Assembly: GCA_021773975.1 (NCBI GenBank)
Contig: JAJFJN010000038.1
Location: forward strand, 186,001-250,000
DNA from: Gammaproteobacteria bacterium
GTDB taxonomy: Bacteria > Pseudomonadota > Gammaproteobacteria > Chromatiales > Chromatiaceae
Direction: 5' to 3'
DNA: 64,000 nucleotides
Below the pieces are notes generated by a model that made no database searches, was not told where the DNA came from, and saw only the letters and a list, made by a program, of their open reading frames with translations. Numbering within the stretch: the first letter of the stretch is position 1; each line of letters opens with the position of its first letter. A program made the position numbers and the translations under genes. Of this stretch, positions 46,848 to 55,201 are shown piece by piece.

Positions 46848-47705
46848 GTGTCAATCGAAAAAGGCGTACTCTTTGTGGTGGCAACACCCATCGGCAATCT
46901 AGATGATTTTTCACCTCGTGCGGTGAAGACTCTAAAACAGGTCAATCTTATCGCTGCGGAGGATACCCGTCACAGCAAACCCCTGCTGCGGCATTTTGGG
47001 ATCAGCACACCATTGATCGCCATGCATGAGCACAACGAACGGGAAGCCATGCAGAACATTTTGGCACGTCTAAAAGAGAACCAGTCCATTGCGCTCATCT
47101 CTGATGCGGGTACACCGCTGATCAGCGACCCCGGATTTCCACTCGTGCGTGAGTGCCACCAGCTCGGCATTCGTGTCTGCCCAATACCTGGAGCCAGCGC
47201 AGCAATCTGTGCCATTTCAGCTGCCGGCCTGCCTTCTGACCGATTTCTGTTTGAGGGATTCCTGCCCCGCACCCAAGCCGCTCGCCGCGAACGACTGCAA
47301 GGCTTAAAACACGAACACTGCACCCTGGTTTTCTATGAATCAAACCACCGGATACGCGAATCATTACAGGATATGCAATTAGTATTTGGTGCAGATCGCC
47401 CTGCCCTGTTGGCGCGGGAACTAACCAAGCTACACGAAACCCTGATCAGCGCGCCACTGGATGAGCTACTGCAACAGGTTGAAGCCGACCCAATGCAACG
47501 CAAAGGTGAGATTGTGCTATTGGTAGCTGGGGCTGAGAAAAAGGCCGATGCTGAGCAAACGGCAGAGGCCACTCGCATCCTTGAAATTTTGCTGAAAGAG
47601 CTGCCGGTAAAACAGGCTGCGGCACTGACCGCCCAGATAACCGGAGAGAAGAAAAACCAGCTCTATCAAGAGGCATTGGCGTTACGAGATCCACCTAAAA
47701 GCTAA
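46848..47705 (+). CDS. rsmI: 16S rRNA (cytidine(1402)-2'-O)-methyltransferase
   Basis: 285 residues. VLFVVATPIGNLDDFSPRAV, AAEDTRHSKPLLRHFGI, ALISDAGTPLISDPGFPLVR, PGASAAICAISAAGLPSDRF and FYESNHRIRESL are the tetrapyrrole-methylase-fold motifs of RsmI. Start is GTG at 46848. Its last 75 codons or so reappear, decayed, at 49409-49575. The rnpB gene that follows rsmI in some gammaproteobacteria is not here. Confidence 0.95.
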   Translation: MSIEKGVLFVVATPIGNLDDFSPRAVKTLKQVNLIAAEDTRHSKPLLRHFGISTPLIAMHEHNEREAMQNILARLKENQSIALISDAGTPLISDPGFPLVRECHQLGIRVCPIPGASAAICAISAAGLPSDRFLFEGFLPRTQAARRERLQGLKHEHCTLVFYESNHRIRESLQDMQLVFGADRPALLARELTKLHETLISAPLDELLQQVEADPMQRKGEIVLLVAGAEKKADAEQTAEATRILEILLKELPVKQAAALTAQITGEKKNQLYQEALALRDPPKS

Positions 47706-47778
47706 TACTTTTTTAGCTACAAATAATAGGCAAGAGACCCGAAGTAAGTACCACTTCTACCCCATTGCACCTTAGCAC

Positions 47779-49041
47779 CTATTTGATTAGTAGAATTGCA
47801 TGCCGCCAACCTTTTCCACCGCCACAAACCCAGCTTGGACAAATGCCATCCGTTGGATCAAGGTTATTATCCAACTCATATCTGTCTGAAAGGCCATCCC
47901 GATCCGTGTCCTTTTTAGTTGGGTTACTGCCCGCTGAATATTCTTGAAGATTGGTAAGGCCATCTTCATCTTGATCTAAGGCCGCATCAGAACCATTGAG
48001 TGGGTCAAGAAATGCATGGCTGTCTTCATAGCTGTCTGGCAGACCATCATTGTCATCATCTGGATCATCAATATCTGGCGTTCCATCACCATCAGAATCA
48101 TGATGACCTGTTTCGCAATAATCGAGCAATGCCTCAATGATTTCAGCTCGATCATTTACATCTGCAATAGCTTCTAACGGAAAAGCCATAAAACCTGTTC
48201 GGTAAACCTCAGTCTCTTTAAAAATAGCAGCACTACCATTTGTTCCAATAAACCCTATAAATGCCGTACTATCCGGAGTAACAGCATCACTAAAGTCTGA
48301 CCAATCATATATCAAACTATCTGAACCTAACCCACTAAATCTCCCAGCACCAGAAACTGTAGCAGTAGAAACCTCACCCACCATAGAAGCAACACCCAGA
48401 TAACTACTCATAAAGGCAGTTACTTCATTAGTATAATTTGAATGTGCATAATAATCCTGTGCGCTTATAAGCAGACACTTCCCTGCATCCAGGGTTGCCG
48501 CCAAAGCCGTTTCTTCCGCTTGATCTGGGCCGGTCTCAAACCACCCGTTAAACCATATGATTTTATTATAGATATTGGGATATGCTCTATGAACTGCCAG
48601 CTGAGCTGATACATCAACTGCATCGGCACTGATCACATCATAAGTTACACCAAGCTGATCAAGTACGGTGGTATAAGAGGAAAGTGCACTAAACCCTGGA
48701 ATATCATCATCTACTAGCAGTACCTCACCGGGTGATGCTGCAGAGGCTGGGTTTGTGTTTAGGACATATTCATCATGATTAGTGTATCCATCACCATCCT
48801 GATCTAATGCCGCATCAGCGGCATTTTGTGGATCAAGGAATGCACGACTATCTTCATAGGCATCTGGCAGACCATCGCCATCACTATCTACACTTTGATT
48901 GGATAACGCTATTCCCGAATAAAGAGTGCAAATCAGCGCAAAAAGTACGCATAGGCCAGCATGCTGGTATTGCGAAAGCGATGACGCTTTCTCAGCAGTT
49001 CTAAATCTACTCCCTATCATTCGCACCTTATGCATTGCCAT
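47779..49041 (-). CDS. exported protein with thrombospondin type-3-like calcium-binding repeats
   Basis: 420 residues. A hydrophobic signal segment at about residues 29-48 follows a long basic N-terminus. Two acidic calcium-type blocks (DSDGDGLPDAYEDSRAFLD, residues 51-98, and DDDNDGLPDSYEDSHAFLDP, 328-374) flank a middle domain (about 105-310) that looks like an alpha/beta Rossmann or GATase-like fold (GEVLLVDDDIPGFSALSSYT). GAGGG stands 7 bases before the ATG. A Cys-containing tail (DGICPSWVCGGGKGW) ends the protein. It is probably secreted or surface-bound; ligand and enzymatic role, if any, unknown. Confidence 0.7.
   Translation of the reverse strand: MAMHKVRMIGSRFRTAEKASSLSQYQHAGLCVLFALICTLYSGIALSNQSVDSDGDGLPDAYEDSRAFLDPQNAADAALDQDGDGYTNHDEYVLNTNPASAASPGEVLLVDDDIPGFSALSSYTTVLDQLGVTYDVISADAVDVSAQLAVHRAYPNIYNKIIWFNGWFETGPDQAEETALAATLDAGKCLLISAQDYYAHSNYTNEVTAFMSSYLGVASMVGEVSTATVSGAGRFSGLGSDSLIYDWSDFSDAVTPDSTAFIGFIGTNGSAAIFKETEVYRTGFMAFPLEAIADVNDRAEIIEALLDYCETGHHDSDGDGTPDIDDPDDDNDGLPDSYEDSHAFLDPLNGSDAALDQDEDGLTNLQEYSAGSNPTKKDTDRDGLSDRYELDNNLDPTDGICPSWVCGGGKGWRHAILLIK
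47920..48891 (-). repeat. internal repeat pair in the calcium-binding protein gene
   Basis: The two blocks, 48748-48891 and 47920-48060, encode about 47 residues each of matching sequence (DGLPD-x-YEDS-x-AFLDP then AALDQD-x-DG-x-TN then EY) and are also similar in DNA, for example CATCTGGCAGACCATC against TGTCTGGCAGACCATC. The intervening domain separates them, so this is an internal duplication or paired module rather than an array. Confidence 0.7.
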
Positions 49042-49340
49042 TTATTGACCCTCTACAGTTTACTTATATTTTTTGCACATCAAGCTAGAGTGGTTAAATG
49101 TCAGCTATCGTAGCATTACACATGCAGTTGCCAACGCTACTCCACACGTATCCACCCAACATCCATGCAAAAAAGACTAACCTATTGTCACGTATTGCTT
49201 ATTTCTATGTAAGCATTTAATAGCGCTCTGTCATTAAAGCCATTTGCATGTATCTTATTCAAAACCAATTACTATTGCATTAATGCCGTACTATTTGAGG
49301 AAGCAAGCGACTTTTTCAAAAGAAACAAAAAACATGTAAG
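49042..49340. other. AT-rich intergenic region
   Basis: About 300 bases upstream of the calcium-binding protein gene. Nothing beyond its ribosome-binding site (GAGGG at 49047-49053) was recognised: no open frame of note, no terminator, no riboswitch. Confidence 0.4.
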
Positions 49341-49575
49341 GCCACCCTAAACTGCCAGCCCAGTGGATTCAAATGAACTGCGTATTTCTCCAGCCGCATG
49401 GAAGCAGTCTGCAACAAGCTGAAGCAGACACTATTCTAATGCAGTGCAAAGGTGAAGTTGTGTTATTTATGAATGAATAAAACCGACCTGAACAAGCAAC
49501 AGAGACCAGCCACATTCTTGAGATCCTGCTGGAAGAGCTACCAGCAGAACAGGCAATGATTGTAAGCCAACTTTC
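49341..49575 (+). pseudogene. chimeric relic: hyuB 5' end joined to rsmI 3' end
   Basis: 49341-49408 aligns with hyuB upstream sequence and first codons (51843-51910): shared GCCACC-TAAA, CCCAGTG at the GTG start, GAGCT/GAACT, GTATTT, TCCAG and the codons for SR(I/M)EAVC, with one base missing. 49409-49575 aligns with rsmI 47469 onward: CTGCAACA, GAAGC, GCAAAGGTGA then EQATETSHILEILLEELPAE against EQTAEATRILEILLKELPVK. A stop codon and a frameshift interrupt the rsmI part. This join is what a tandem duplication from inside rsmI to inside hyuB would leave. Confidence 0.75.
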
Positions 49576-49637
49576 ACTTATCCATTTGCCATACCAACGC
49601 TTTCTTCCTGCCCATTACCAAGTATGTAACTCAGTAT

Positions 49638-51272
49638 TTAGATATGTCTGCCTTGATTAATTGATATCACTGAAGCTCCATCAGAATGACTATGGGATCC
49701 AGTCGCCATATGATCGAGATGCCAGCAATTTCTCCCCATATCTTTAGCCTTATATAACGCGTCATCCCCACATTTTATTATCTCTTCTATTTTAACCTCT
49801 CCCGCCTCACTCAGGTAAGCAAGCCCCATAGAAACCGTGAGGAAAGGCGTAACATCATTGCCCTTATGCTCAATTTTAAGCGCCATAATTCTCAGTCTTA
49901 CCTGTTCCAGCAGTGTCTCGGTTGCTTCCTCATTCATCCCTGTCACAAGAAAACAGAACTCTTCTCCTCCGATACGAAACACGAAATCCCCAGACCTGCG
50001 TAGAACCTTTGTTAATATATTAGCGACTCTCTTTAGGATGAGGTCTCCCTCTGGGTGGCCATACATATCGTTATAACGCTTGAAATGGTCTACATCCAAA
50101 ATCCCAAATGCAAAACTTTTCTTTTCTCTTCTAGCTCTAAGCAATTCTTTTGGGAAAACCCGGTAAAGGTGTCGTCTGTTGTACAACTTAGTGAGGGGGT
50201 CGGTAATAGAGAGTTGCTCAATCTTTTTAAATGCAGCTCTATTTATCCGATAAAAGGAGTTTATAAAGTAGCTAATCAAAATAGCCGCTAGTAACGCGCC
50301 TATTATGGTGTACAGCTGCAACTTCTGATGTGATTTCAGTCTTTCCTTCAAGTGGTCAATGAGTAGAATACCGATTTTTTCGTAAGCATTTTGGAAAGCA
50401 CCAATTACTTTAGTGCCAGCATAGAAATAATGCTCAGCTTCTGGCTGAATAGCGCCATCTGTAATTAATGCGCTGCTCACATCTACAAAGTGGCTTACGT
50501 CTTCATTCGCTTGTTCAATTATAGGTTTAATAATATTCTGCAATTGAGGTGCAGCAGTCAGTTTAATATTAATAGCATTAGTAATGTTTTCAATTCCAAG
50601 GTTGATTGCGGTCAAGCGTTCCCTGAAAAATATTTTCTCTTCATCGCTAACCGCTCCGCTTGCTAATATCCCGCTACCTACTCCCCGGACTCTCCCGATA
50701 AACTCGATCAATTGCGGAAGCTGATTAACGAGCAGATCCATCATGTAATGAGACTCAAACTCACGGTCTAATATCAGATAGGCACGGTTAGCAATCAGCT
50801 GGATAATTTGTCGTTGCCCCTCAATGATCTGAGTATATTGTTGAAAACGATCTTTTAGTGGGATGGCATGAAGCGGAGTTGTAAATAGTGTGTTCGCATC
50901 TTTTAGCAGCTTGGCGGCATCATTCTCTACTCTGAATTTGGTACTCTGAATTTGCCATTGTGGGGTGGAAATGTTTGCTATGAACTGTCTCTGCAGTGAT
51001 TCGAGCTTTTGCCTGTCTGCATTTTCTTTGCGCGCACTGATTTCTGAAAAGCCACGTATCTTTTGCAAATGGATAATTCCATCATGGATAGTCTGAATAG
51101 CTGCGACACCATGTAATTCATTTTCTGTAAATCTGATTTCTGAATTCAGATATTGGACTACACCAAAAATGGAGAAGAAAAGTAGCAGCAAAGGCACTAC
51201 TGTAGCAGCAAGATAGCGCCAGGTACTGATGGACACTTGCCGCTTGTCTCCTGTTTCTTGCGTTGAATCCAT
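49638..51272 (-). CDS. membrane-bound diguanylate cyclase (GGDEF)
   Basis: 544 residues. Membrane helix 1 at about 19-41, a periplasmic helical sensor of about 280 residues (IQTIHDGIIHLQKIRGFSE and onward, like the NIT/helical nitrate-sensor group), membrane helix 2 near 322-340, and a C-terminal GGDEF domain with DPLTKLYNRRHLYRVF, FGILDVDHFKRYNDMYGHPE and RIGGEEF at 433-439. An inhibitory RxxD site (RSGD) lies five residues before GGEEF. The catalytic residues are intact, so it should make cyclic di-GMP. AGGAAG is 6 bases before the ATG. A long leader with a c-di-GMP-I-like riboswitch precedes it (see 51542-51628). Confidence 0.9.
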   Translation of the reverse strand: MDSTQETGDKRQVSISTWRYLAATVVPLLLLFFSIFGVVQYLNSEIRFTENELHGVAAIQTIHDGIIHLQKIRGFSEISARKENADRQKLESLQRQFIANISTPQWQIQSTKFRVENDAAKLLKDANTLFTTPLHAIPLKDRFQQYTQIIEGQRQIIQLIANRAYLILDREFESHYMMDLLVNQLPQLIEFIGRVRGVGSGILASGAVSDEEKIFFRERLTAINLGIENITNAINIKLTAAPQLQNIIKPIIEQANEDVSHFVDVSSALITDGAIQPEAEHYFYAGTKVIGAFQNAYEKIGILLIDHLKERLKSHQKLQLYTIIGALLAAILISYFINSFYRINRAAFKKIEQLSITDPLTKLYNRRHLYRVFPKELLRARREKKSFAFGILDVDHFKRYNDMYGHPEGDLILKRVANILTKVLRRSGDFVFRIGGEEFCFLVTGMNEEATETLLEQVRLRIMALKIEHKGNDVTPFLTVSMGLAYLSEAGEVKIEEIIKCGDDALYKAKDMGRNCWHLDHMATGSHSHSDGASVISINQGRHI

Positions 51273-51432
51273 TGCTTGCTTCCTATAGGCAGAACCCTAC
51301 AACCGAATGTGTTGTATTGACGATGTAACGCAGGGGTGAGCCACCCACTACAAGTACATTGATTCCCTTTCCCATTGTTGCCACCAAAAAAGCCATGGTT
51401 AAACGCATTTATTTTGATACAAACTCAGACGA

Positions 51433-51452
51433 TCTTGATTGATGAATCAAGA
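51433..51452. other. hairpin in the leader of the diguanylate cyclase gene
   Basis: TCTTGATT-GATG-AATCAAGA, a perfect 8-base stem with a 4-base loop, about 160 bases upstream of the start codon and 90 bases beyond the aptamer. No T-run follows on the minus strand, so it is not a typical terminator. It may be part of the expression platform. The leader between here and 51272 shows no other clear element. Confidence 0.35.
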
Positions 51453-51541
51453 GAAAGGGCTGGCAAATAAGAACTATACTGCTTGGTATATATGATGGGC
51501 GTAGCCTTCCTGCGGATGACCAGCGTATCAGATTAAGTTGG

Positions 51542-51628
51542 CTCGGCAGCCCCGCTGTCGTAGGAATAAATTCCCTTAGATCGGTGGCTTTGCGTTCCCA
51601 TTCTTTAGAAAGGGGCGGCCCTTATCAA
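51542..51628 (-). promoter_or_regulatory. candidate cyclic di-GMP-I (GEMM-I) riboswitch aptamer
   Basis: Minus-strand RNA reads GATAAGGGCC, then a CCC-UUUC-UAAA-GAA-UGGG hairpin, then AACGCAAAGCCACCG, AUCUAAGG, a short UUAUUCC arm, and ACAGCGGGGCUGCCGA. The ACGCAAAGCC joint, the CUAAG tetraloop receptor and the AGC-GGG-GCUGCCGA 3' arm are hallmarks of GEMM-I. The 5' arm is less typical: GGGCCGCCCC where GGCAAACC is expected. It sits 270 bases upstream of a diguanylate cyclase gene on the same strand, right after a TTGACA promoter. Confidence 0.7.
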
Positions 51629-51634
51629 ACAAAC

Positions 51635-51664
51635 ATACTCAAGGAGCATCGTCTAACCTGTCAA
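51635..51664 (-). promoter_or_regulatory. putative sigma-70 promoter of the riboswitch leader
   Basis: Minus strand: a perfect -35 TTGACA (51664-51659), an 18-base spacer and a poor -10 GAGTAT (51640-51635). Transcription would start near 51628, at the first bases of the aptamer. The -10 matches the consensus weakly, so this is tentative. Confidence 0.4.
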
Positions 51665-51864
51665 CTACGTCACATACTAGAGACTTTTTTAACAGAAAGC
51701 AGTGACATACATCAATAACAGCGGCAATAGCAACAATTATGAGAATTAAAATCACTTTTGTCTGGACTACTGTCAATCAGTATAGCTCACATGAAGCACG
51801 ATGCATTGAATCAACGCTTCAGGTATTCTTCGATCTCTCTTTGCCACCTTAAATTAGCAACCCA

Positions 51865-53421
51865 GTGAATCCTGTAGAGCTAAGTATTTTTTCCAGTCGT
51901 ATAGAGGCGGTATGCGATGAAATGGGGGCCGTGCTGCGTAATGCTGCATTTTCACCCAACATCCGTGACCGGTTGGATTTCTCCTGCGCTGTATTTGATC
52001 AGCAGGGTGAACTCTGTGCGCAAGCCGCTCACATCCCAGTTCATCTGGGCAGCATGGCCTTTGCCATGCGTGGCATCGTGGCACAACTGGCGTGGCAAGC
52101 TGGGGATATGGTTATTCTCAACAATCCCTACCTTGGTGGCACACACCTGCCTGATGTCACCATTATTGCCCCACTATTTATTTCCGACAAATTGACGGCA
52201 TTTGTCGTTAATCGCGCCCATCACGCTGATATTGGCGCAGAAACACCCGGTTCAATGCCTGTCTCTACTACCCTGCATGAAGAGGGACAAATTATTGATC
52301 CTGTGCATCTTATGCAGAATGGCTCGCTGAATCAGGATCTACTGAATAACCTTACTGACAACACCCGCAATCCAGAAGAGTCTCAGGGTGACTTTGCCGC
52401 CCAGATCAGTGCCAACCGCACTGGGTTAACCCGTCTGCAAGCGCTGATCACAAAGCAGACCTTGCCCGGTTTTTTAGCCGGATTGGAGGCTTTAAATAGT
52501 TACGCTGAACAGCTGGCTGTAAGCGCTCTGCGGTCCATACCCGATGGCAAATATCAATTTCAGGATTGGATGGACAATGATGGACAGGGCAATGAAAACA
52601 TTCCTATCCGCGTCTCTCTAACGGTAAACAATGGCAAGGTAAAAGCAGACTTTACCGGTAGCGCCCCACAGGTATCAGGCAACATCAATGCCCCGCTCTC
52701 CGTTGCGGCGGCGGCTGTCTACTATGTTTTTCGCTGCCTCATGCCAAGCTACACCCCTGCTTGTGCGGGCACTTTTCGCCCCATCTCTCTACACGCCCCA
52801 GAGGGCACGCTACTCAATGCCCGTTACCCAGCAGCAGTAGCTGCCGGCAACGTTGAAACCAGCACCCGGGTGGTGGATGTGGTGATGGGTGCATTAGCCA
52901 AAGCGCTGCCACAGCGGATCCCCGCTGCCAGCCATGGCAGCATGAACAACATCGCCATGGGCGGAGAGACAACTACTGGACATTGGGACTATTACGAAAC
53001 CATCGGCGGTGGCATGGGGGCAGGTGCTCAATATGATGGCCTATCCGGAGTTCAAACCCACATGACCAATACCCTGAATACACCCATCGAAGTACTTGAA
53101 TCCCGCTTTCCTCTGCGCATCAATCGTTACCAACTCAGGCATGGATCAGGTGGCGATGGTCTGCACAAAGGGGGAGACGGTCTGATCCGGGAATTTGAGT
53201 TTCTCTCCCCCACAACGGTGACACTACTCACCGAACGGCGTAGCCATAAACCCTGGGGGATAGCCGGTGGTGCTCCCGGTCAAGCAGGCCAAAATCACCT
53301 CAACGATGAACAGCTACCCGGTAAGACCTGCAGGCAACTGAAGCCCGGCCAACGGCTTACCATCAAAACACCCGGTGGCGGGGGCTTTGGCACCCCTGTC
53401 CAAAACCTGAAGGACGGATAA
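51865..53421 (+). CDS. hyuB: hydantoinase B/oxoprolinase family protein
   Basis: 518 residues, HyuB family. NPVELSIFSSRIEAVCDEMG, RDRLDFSCAVFDQQGELCAQ, HIPVHLGSMAFAMRGIV, ILNNPYLGGTHLPDVTIIAP, HHADIGAETPGSMPVS and GGFGTPVQNL are conserved. These ATP-dependent enzymes cleave cyclic amides such as 5-oxoproline or N-methylhydantoin, normally with a HyuA partner; none is in this window. Start is GTG at 51865. It ends 4 bases before the asparagine synthase-like gene, so the two are probably translated from one mRNA. Confidence 0.9.
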   Translation: MNPVELSIFSSRIEAVCDEMGAVLRNAAFSPNIRDRLDFSCAVFDQQGELCAQAAHIPVHLGSMAFAMRGIVAQLAWQAGDMVILNNPYLGGTHLPDVTIIAPLFISDKLTAFVVNRAHHADIGAETPGSMPVSTTLHEEGQIIDPVHLMQNGSLNQDLLNNLTDNTRNPEESQGDFAAQISANRTGLTRLQALITKQTLPGFLAGLEALNSYAEQLAVSALRSIPDGKYQFQDWMDNDGQGNENIPIRVSLTVNNGKVKADFTGSAPQVSGNINAPLSVAAAAVYYVFRCLMPSYTPACAGTFRPISLHAPEGTLLNARYPAAVAAGNVETSTRVVDVVMGALAKALPQRIPAASHGSMNNIAMGGETTTGHWDYYETIGGGMGAGAQYDGLSGVQTHMTNTLNTPIEVLESRFPLRINRYQLRHGSGGDGLHKGGDGLIREFEFLSPTTVTLLTERRSHKPWGIAGGAPGQAGQNHLNDEQLPGKTCRQLKPGQRLTIKTPGGGGFGTPVQNLKDG

Positions 53422-53425
53422 AGCA

Positions 53426-55201
53426 ATGTGCGGTATTTGTGGTGAATTGAGATTTGATAAACAACCCGCTGATCTGGCAACCATCCAGCGCATGACAGCC
53501 TGCCTGGAACGACGCGGACCTGACCATGGCGGCAGTTTTAGTGATGGCCCCCTGGGGTTTGGCCATCGGCGGCTGGCGGTTATCGACCTCTCTGAACACT
53601 CCGACCAACCTCTGGTTGACCAGGAACTGTGCCTGTCTCTGGTTTTTAATGGGGCTATCTACAACTATAAAGAGCTGCGCAGTGAGCTTCAGGGCAAGGG
53701 CTACCACTTCTTCTCCGAGGGCGACAGTGAGGTCATTCTCAAGGCCTGGCATACCTGGGGCGAGGCCTGTGTCGAACGGCTGCATGGCATGTTTGCCTTT
53801 GCCATTTGGGATGAACATAAACACCAGCTATTCCTGGCACGGGATCGCTTCGGCATCAAACCGCTCTACTACACAGCTGACACAGAACGGTTCCGCTTTG
53901 CCTCCAATATGCAGGCGCTATTAGCCGCTGGCGACATTGACACACGCATCAACCCAATTGGATTGCATCACCAGTTCACGCTGCATGGTGTTGTTCCTGC
54001 GCCCCACACCATTCTCTCTGGTATCAAAAAACTTCCTCCAGCCCATACCCTTTTGATTGAAGCTGGAGGTAGGCAAAAACTACAACAATACTGGACACTA
54101 TCAGCAACCCGGCCAGCAACTTCTCGCAGTGACGATGACTGGTTGGAAGCCATCCATGAATCTCTGCGTGCCGCTGTACGTCGTCGGAATGAGATTGCCG
54201 ATGTGCCTGTTGGCGTTCTGCTCTCAGGTGGGCTTGACTCCAGCCTACTGGTAGCACTGCTGGCAGAGATCGGGGCCACTGATATCAACACCTTCTCCGT
54301 CGGCTTTGAAGATACCCCACAGGAGGAGGGCAATGAATTTGTCTACTCTGACATGGTGGCAAAACACTATGCTACAAACCATCACCGCTATCGTGTGCCC
54401 AATGCCGAGGTTCTGCAACGCCTGCCCGAGGCGGTCGATGCCATGGCTGAACCCATGTTTGGTCAGGATGCCGTTGCCTTCTATCTGTTGGCTGAGCAGG
54501 TCTCTAAAAAGATAAAGGTCGTACAATCCGGCCAGGGTGCCGATGAGGTCTTCGGCGGCTATTTTTGGTATCCACGTATGCAGTCTGAAGCCACGGGGTC
54601 TGCTGTGGAACGTTTTGCAAAACACTATTTTGATCGGGATCACAGTGAGCTTCTTCAAATGATCTCCGGTGATTTCTGTGGGGAAGATTACAGCACCCAG
54701 CTGATCTCCAAATTATTAGCTGAACCCGGTGCCGATAACTTTATGGATGCAGTGCTGCGCATGGATACCACCACCCTGATCGTGGATGATCCGGTAAAGC
54801 GTGTCGACAACATGACCATGGCCTGGGGATTGGAAGCACGTGTGCCTTTTCTGGATCATCAACTGGTCGAGCTGGCTGCCCAATGTCCGCCAGAACTCAA
54901 GCTACGAGAAGGCGGCAAATACCCACTTAAAGCCATGGCGCGTGGACTGCTGCCAGATGCCGTTATTGATCGCCCAAAAGGCTACTTCCCCATGCCTGCA
55001 CTAAAATATGTACGGGGTGAGTTTCTGGATTTTATGCGGGATATTCTAGATTCACAGGTCTGCCGTGAACGTGGCCTCTACAACCGCGCCTATGTTGAGA
55101 TGTTGCTCGACGCGCCCGAACAGCACCACACCCGACTACAGGGTAGTAAGCTGTGGCATCTGGCACTGTTGGAATTTTGGTTGCAGCGGAATGTGGACTA
55201 A
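53426..55201 (+). CDS. asparagine synthase-like amidotransferase, probably N-acetylglutaminylglutamine amide-forming
   Basis: 591 residues. Cys2 nucleophile at MCGICGELRFDKQPADL, glutaminase segments RRGPDHGG, VFNGAIYNYKELRSEL and RDRFGIKPLYY, then the synthetase domain with LLSGGLDSSLLVALL (PP-loop), SGQGADEVFGGYFWYP and RVDNMTMAWGLEARVPFLDH. Length and the ELRFDKQPADL start resemble the N-acetylglutaminylglutamine amidotransferases that make the osmoprotectant NAGGN. The usual partner, the dipeptide synthetase, is not next door, so ordinary asparagine synthase or another amide ligase remains possible. AAGGACGG precedes the ATG. Confidence 0.8.
   Translation: MCGICGELRFDKQPADLATIQRMTACLERRGPDHGGSFSDGPLGFGHRRLAVIDLSEHSDQPLVDQELCLSLVFNGAIYNYKELRSELQGKGYHFFSEGDSEVILKAWHTWGEACVERLHGMFAFAIWDEHKHQLFLARDRFGIKPLYYTADTERFRFASNMQALLAAGDIDTRINPIGLHHQFTLHGVVPAPHTILSGIKKLPPAHTLLIEAGGRQKLQQYWTLSATRPATSRSDDDWLEAIHESLRAAVRRRNEIADVPVGVLLSGGLDSSLLVALLAEIGATDINTFSVGFEDTPQEEGNEFVYSDMVAKHYATNHHRYRVPNAEVLQRLPEAVDAMAEPMFGQDAVAFYLLAEQVSKKIKVVQSGQGADEVFGGYFWYPRMQSEATGSAVERFAKHYFDRDHSELLQMISGDFCGEDYSTQLISKLLAEPGADNFMDAVLRMDTTTLIVDDPVKRVDNMTMAWGLEARVPFLDHQLVELAAQCPPELKLREGGKYPLKAMARGLLPDAVIDRPKGYFPMPALKYVRGEFLDFMRDILDSQVCRERGLYNRAYVEMLLDAPEQHHTRLQGSKLWHLALLEFWLQRNVD

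Follow-up and report, generated by a model that had tools for sequence, protein, structure and literature searches.

Features of the locus

The window, a 64-kb stretch of gammaproteobacterial DNA, carries on its minus strand an open frame of 544 residues (51272-49638) that encodes a GGDEF protein and is preceded by a match to the c-di-GMP-I (GEMM-I) riboswitch family (Table 1). Upstream of this pair lie a hydantoinase B-type gene (hyuB; 51865-53421) and, adjoining it, a gene for N-acetylglutaminylglutamine amidotransferase (53426-55201; TIGR03104, 984.6 bits). On the other side, beyond fragments resembling the rsmI 3' end and the hyuB start, lies a gene (47779-49041) whose product matches the bacterial TSP3 repeat of calcium-binding type and which contains an internal DNA repeat of 111 bases (47938-48048 and 48766-48876, 77% identical).

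The only Rfam match above cut-off in the 64-kb window was that of RF01051, which scored 61.5 bits (gathering score 35; E 1.3e-9 for 64 kb and both strands), and the alignment spans model positions 1-87 of 87. The same aptamer was recovered when the whole genome was searched, and it again ranked first when 51300-51900 was scanned permissively (up to E 10), the three sub-threshold rows there belonging to unrelated families. The c-di-GMP-II family RF01786 did not exceed the cut-off anywhere in the 64-kb window and gave no row up to E 10 among those listed for 51300-51900, where the output omitted two overlapping matches of lower score from the RF01051 clan. A preliminary description had placed a GEMM-I leader at 51542-51628; the covariance match confirms this element at full length and extends it by two bases, and the hallmarks named for it, ACGCAAAGCC, CUAAG and ACAGCGGGGCUGCCGA, were all located.

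The bases expected of a functional aptamer are conserved in the alignment. The ligand contacts equivalent to G20, A47 and C92 of the V. cholerae aptamer Vc2 are all three kept, as is the inter-helix Watson-Crick pair (C35-G74); these contacts, and a universal inter-helix C-G pair, have been described for the class (PMC4744006). The contact spacings of Vc1 (27 between the first and second contacts, 24 between the first and the inter-helix C) agree with model positions 11, 38 and 35. The CUAAG receptor in P3 is kept together with the three adenines of the P2 loop, whose replacement is reported to have abolished binding in the Cd1 aptamer (PMC9262584). Relative to the model, P2 contains two single-base insertions, and only one of the 22 model pairs is non-standard (an A-C pair in P3, at aptamer bases 50 and 74). 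We conclude that this element is a genuine c-di-GMP-I riboswitch, for which binding of c-di-GMP is predicted.

The downstream frame ends in a GGDEF domain recognized by PF00990 (E 8.2e-43) and TIGR00254 (E 5.7e-44), with the signature GGEEF at residue 435. Five residues before the signature, RSGD at residues 426-429 forms the RxxD motif of an I-site (region RSGDFVFRIGGEEF). Such a site is not required of all diguanylate cyclases. The family match, the signature and the usual spacing of the RxxD motif agree with the earlier claim of a c-di-GMP synthase with a product-inhibition site, and they support the assignment of this gene as a diguanylate cyclase of that type, its activity being predicted. 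Among solved structures, 46 distinct sequences match the protein at E <= 1e-10, best over residues 348-515. Its N-terminal part matched no Pfam family at E 0.001, and relatives of this part are at most 28% identical among the matches listed for 210 genomes of the family and 369 of the class. A search of the genome contigs for the cyclase returned three loci, each matching the GGDEF region only, and at least three further GGDEF proteins of the same genome match it at E <= 1e-30.

No expression platform was found in the leader between the aptamer and the start codon. We found no terminator-like site in 51200-51900 (0.5 expected), which led us to reject a terminator as the platform. As no intrinsic terminator was detected, control of translation start, Rho-dependent termination or RNA stability is likelier than hairpin termination; as for C-over-G stretches of the Rho type, the C/G ratio of the leader reaches at most 1.67 in 78-base windows. 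A 381-nt stretch containing the leader folds no better than its shuffles (z -0.83), and we found no second copy of the leader in the genome. The 37-codon frame within the leader matched neither Pfam (up to E 5) nor NCBIfam (up to E 0.01); its reading as a metallo-hydrolase relic, suggested by a motif, was dropped because no family matched. Transcription had been proposed to start from a TTGACA promoter. The hexamer is present at 51664-51659 but, as read by eye, it is followed after an 18-nt spacer by a poor -10 element (GAGTAT, 3 of 6), and it is not among the two promoter-like sites returned by a scan of 51200-51900 (1.3 expected by chance), so this promoter was not substantiated.

Table 1. 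Coordinates in the window of the riboswitch, the cyclase gene and the edges of the block that contains them.
Feature	Position	Strand	Basis
Diguanylate cyclase: N-terminal region of ~350 residues without Pfam match, C-terminal GGDEF	49638..51272	(-)	PF00990
Leader, aptamer to start codon, 269 nt	51273..51541	(-)	sequence
Putative 37-codon frame within the leader, without family match	51283..51396	(-)	sequence
c-di-GMP-I (GEMM-I) riboswitch aptamer, full length	51542..51630	(-)	RF01051
Model position 11 (= Vc2 G20), c-di-GMP/cGAMP selectivity base: G	51620	(-)	RF01051 alignment; described in PMC9262584
Equivalent of Vc2 A47 (model A38): A	51591	(-)	counted by hand from the alignment
Equivalent of Vc2 C92 (model C83): C	51546	(-)	counted by hand; 3' neighbour likewise C
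Inter-helix pair C35-G74 (Vc1 C36-G90)	C 51594, G 51555	(-)	alignment; G counted by hand
Deviating triplet CGC, model positions 14-16 (consensus AAA)	51615..51617	(-)	alignment
P2 terminal loop UAAA replacing GAAA, three A kept	51604..51607	(-)	alignment
Edge of congener-shared sequence, outside the block, before hyuB	51796..51864	(+)	blastn: G005 from 51796, G003 from 51845
Relic like the rsmI 3' end, far edge of the block	49409..49554	(+)	69% identical to 47469-47617, self-comparison
Piece like the hyuB start, far edge of the block	49343-49405		matches the same G003 bases as 51845 onward

A riboswitch-cyclase block absent from the matching intervals of two congeners

The aptamer lies upstream of the cyclase gene and on the same strand, and both fall inside one lineage-specific block. 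In the congener G003, where the region is found on one contig, riboswitch and cyclase are missing: the TSP3-gene region is followed by about 48 unaligned bases and then by hyuB (from 51845). The part of G003 on the TSP3 side aligns, with a gap, to window positions 48867-49348, which cover the beginning of the calcium-repeat (TSP3) gene and the sequence upstream of it. The rsmI-hyuB interval of G005, likewise on one contig, measures about 1 kb and contains a different open frame without the riboswitch-cyclase block. In G002, rsmI is directly followed by the amidotransferase gene, which in the window comes after hyuB.

Because the block is absent both at the G003 site and in the G005 rsmI-hyuB interval, riboswitch and cyclase were probably gained together as one block, and their location in the same block supports the view that they belong together. 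Alternatively, it is possible that the block was lost in G003 and G005. The succession of TSP3 gene, hyuB start, rsmI end, cyclase, riboswitch and hyuB suggests a head-to-tail join between two versions of a single rsmI-hyuB interval. Base composition alone does not mark the block: G+C content is 41.6% in the cyclase gene, 43.5% in the leader and 36.4% in the DNA upstream of the aptamer, against 53-54% in rsmI, hyuB and the amidotransferase gene, but the TSP3 gene, which is shared with G003, is also low (43.7%) and the aptamer itself reaches 52.8%.

The interval from rsmI to hyuB and the amidotransferase gene (window 46848-53426; L239, L248, L252 and L253) varies between the congeners compared. 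Duplicated fragments of the rsmI 3' end occur both in the window (the relic of Table 1) and in genome G001 (L252 1932-2198, 88%), and the hyuB start is likewise duplicated. This interval is perhaps a hot spot of insertion or recombination.

GEMM-I aptamers upstream of GGDEF genes

RF01051 was found in 41 of 210 genomes of the family and in 67 of 369 genomes of the class, the genome of the window being included in both counts; searches across more than 40 genomes used stricter filters. Under stricter filters, no match at E 0.001 was detected in any of five congeners. The genome of the window contains two matches. The second aptamer (L002 1501-1584; G000:C94:7697-7780) precedes a short exported-looking protein of 114-123 residues and, by eye, resembles an aptamer of another genome of the class (L207); its P3 is unusual and may mark a sub-type.

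We compared 151 aptamers, namely all 52 rows of the family search and 99 rows of the class search from outside the family, including the one described here and leaving out 14 further class-search rows with at most 45.1 bits. For most of these aptamers, about 1.5-1.9 kb of downstream DNA or less was available; 20 hand-picked loci were extended (~2-5 kb), and a local GGDEF profile was run on every one of them and Pfam on 18. No readable downstream frame was found for 11 of the 151. In six genomes, that of the window included, at least seven of the 151 aptamers had a GGDEF gene as their first long downstream frame, a number that is a lower bound given the short downstream DNA of most loci. Matches of the local GGDEF profile on the opposite strand at L206 and L222 were excluded from this count. 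The other six aptamers come from five other genomes, and the proteins encoded after them are of the types REC-GGDEF (G076), HAMP-GGDEF (G292) and GGDEF-EAL (G122, G249 and two genes of G554).

These six cases indicate that the arrangement recurs. According to one review, GEMM elements lie upstream of some genes for diguanylate cyclases and phosphodiesterases (PMC12564702), and GEMM-I elements before c-di-GMP enzymes are already in print (PMC12564702, PMC3971182), although another review calls them rare (PMC6366702). Neither the element nor its setting is of a new kind, although the setting is uncommon. In the literature searched, we found no measurement of a GEMM-I switch acting on a cyclase.

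Other loci of the same survey also connect GEMM-I with c-di-GMP signalling. Two aptamers of G554 (L118 and L190, contig C213) are separated by 2 kb, and each precedes a GGDEF-EAL gene of its own. Three others are followed by proteins containing PilZ, a receptor domain for c-di-GMP (L226 4118-4933, L227 4153-4923 and L228 113-886), two of which also carry a receiver domain. Downstream of the aptamer of G308, a gene for a receiver-domain protein is followed by an HD-domain gene.

Proposed function and direction of control

Taken together, these results make it very probable that the mRNA of a GGDEF diguanylate cyclase carries this element as a c-di-GMP-I riboswitch in its 5' leader. In the mechanism that we propose, aptamer and cyclase would be co-transcribed, the leader RNA would bind c-di-GMP, and binding would alter the production of the cyclase, so that feedback through the RNA would add to the product inhibition of the enzyme. 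Because the genome encodes other GGDEF proteins, the riboswitch would read a shared c-di-GMP pool, beyond the product of its own cyclase alone. Of the earlier proposals, the riboswitch ahead of an I-site cyclase stands and two feedback layers on one enzyme are plausible, whereas the promoter and the altered ligand found no support. Counting against the mechanism, neither the terminator scan nor folding revealed an expression platform, and the 269-nt gap with its 37-codon frame leaves room for another target.

On general grounds only, we weakly favour an OFF switch, that is, negative feedback. An ON switch, by which the RNA would exert positive feedback on the cyclase limited by the I-site, is somewhat less probable and nevertheless a serious alternative. 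Vc1, with its long leader, is reported to be an ON switch (PMC4744006). In our minimum-energy fold without constraints, the aptamer contributes its 5' flank and 5' arm to pairing with the start region of the cyclase. Formation of the aptamer slightly opens this region, the predicted openness of the ribosome site rising from 0.33 to 0.39 (from 0.28 to 0.34 when the transcript was longer and the stretch slightly wider), but 9 of 60 linker shuffles reach this difference, so the change lies within the shuffle range and reveals no masking of the ribosome site. The predicted openness of the start of the 37-codon frame is likewise unaffected by the aptamer (0.44 free, 0.43 with the aptamer formed). 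Vc2, moreover, is reported to be an OFF switch acting on translation (PMC7371385, PMC9262584), although one review calls it ON (PMC12564702).

It is unlikely that the cyclase is expressed from another promoter and that the aptamer instead controls a small peptide of the leader or an independent small RNA. The long distance between aptamer and cyclase and the 37-codon frame within it would allow this reading, and Vc2 controls a putative small RNA according to the title of a reference in PMC7371385. However, the 37-codon frame has no family match, and aptamer and cyclase lie within a single block missing from congeners.

Ligand specificity

The deviating 5' arm of the aptamer had been taken as a hint of another ligand, such as cGAMP. 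Its triplet at model positions 14-16, which follows the P1b pairs, is unusual: as read by fixed offset from the match start, so that a nearby insertion or deletion would misplace bases, AAA occurs in 109 of the 151 aptamers and other triplets, of 15 forms, in 42 including this one, CGC being found here only. The P2 loop also departs from GNRA; in a simple stem-loop scan, UAAA was found in two of 151 aptamers (this one included), another non-GNRA loop in seven, and five were unassignable.

We nevertheless consider a cGAMP (GEMM-Ib) or otherwise altered-ligand aptamer very unlikely. An A at the position of Vc2 G20, which we take to be the cGAMP-type (GEMM-Ib) base, is not what the alignment contains at this site: the base is G, as in 140 of the 151 aptamers under the same fixed-position reading, with A in the other 11. 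This position, G11 of the model, has been described as a selectivity factor (PMC9262584). The triplet at 14-16 varies among aptamers that retain G11. In Hypr enzymes, which make cGAMP, a serine replaces the canonical aspartate (Ser348 of GmGacA, nine residues after Asn339; PMC6456294). In our cyclase, the residue nine after the asparagine of FKxxND (N401) is D, the state of c-di-GMP makers, and the serine of Hypr enzymes is thus absent. With the selectivity base being G and the triplet variable, the odd 5' arm gives no evidence for another ligand; an altered-ligand aptamer was rejected on these two grounds and on the aspartate of the cyclase. Triplet and loop consist of unusual letters, but the deviations are of a kind tolerated by the class and leave the selectivity base untouched. 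That the aptamer is a chance similarity or a dead relic is extremely unlikely: we found no direct support for it beyond a score below that of the best family member (85.4 bits), against an E-value of 1.3e-9 across all 87 positions, a single non-standard pair in 22 and a second RF01051 match (58 bits) in the same genome.

Among the other aptamers, one with A at position 11 (L136 1501-1583) precedes a HAMP-GGDEF protein (L220 76-1098) in which, despite the A11 aptamer upstream, both the canonical aspartate and an RxxD I-site are present. A set of aptamers shows a swapped first P1b pair (GCC...CGGAAAG; e.g., L146-L148 and L209-L213), and C at position 12 was read by fixed position in 27 of 151.

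Significance and comparison with known systems

Knowledge of the riboswitch class is unchanged by this case. The new detail is that riboswitch and cyclase share one block, which is missing at the corresponding site of G003 and in the rsmI-hyuB interval of G005. The enzyme paired here with the RNA possesses a product-inhibition site itself, and both were seemingly acquired together. Clear cases of GEMM-I before a cyclase are test beds for RNA feedback on the synthesis of a second messenger. It is conceivable, though rather unlikely, that the sensor RNA and the enzyme making its ligand are a compact feedback cassette that can be transferred, entering and leaving the rsmI-hyuB interval as a single block. 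On this reading, an ON switch would turn the pair into a positive loop capped by the I-site, which might act as a memory or bistable switch in c-di-GMP signalling.

As a member of the GEMM-I class, the aptamer shares the full-length match, the contact bases, the inter-helix C-G pair, the loop adenines and the CUAAG receptor; it differs by CGC in place of AAA at positions 14-16 and by a UAAA loop in place of GNRA, and its placement ahead of an enzyme that makes c-di-GMP is uncommon for the class. Vc1 of V. cholerae, in the gbpA leader, resembles our locus in its long leader (244 nt from transcription start to start codon) with no evident terminator or anti-Shine-Dalgarno element (PMC4744006), but it has another target gene, and the leader here is predicted from the sequence. 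Vc2, in the tfoY leader, is likewise a class-I aptamer in a leader, and when bound it is reported to restrict translation (PMC7371385), whereas folding with shuffles indicated no masking structure here. The closest parallels are the six other loci with GEMM-I before a GGDEF gene. Four of these six encode GGDEF-EAL proteins, unlike our cyclase, and their gaps of 28-236 nt to the first possible start codon are shorter than the 269 nt observed here. The remaining two, in G076 and G292, have GGDEF without EAL and, as in the cyclase described here, an RxxD motif before GGEEF.
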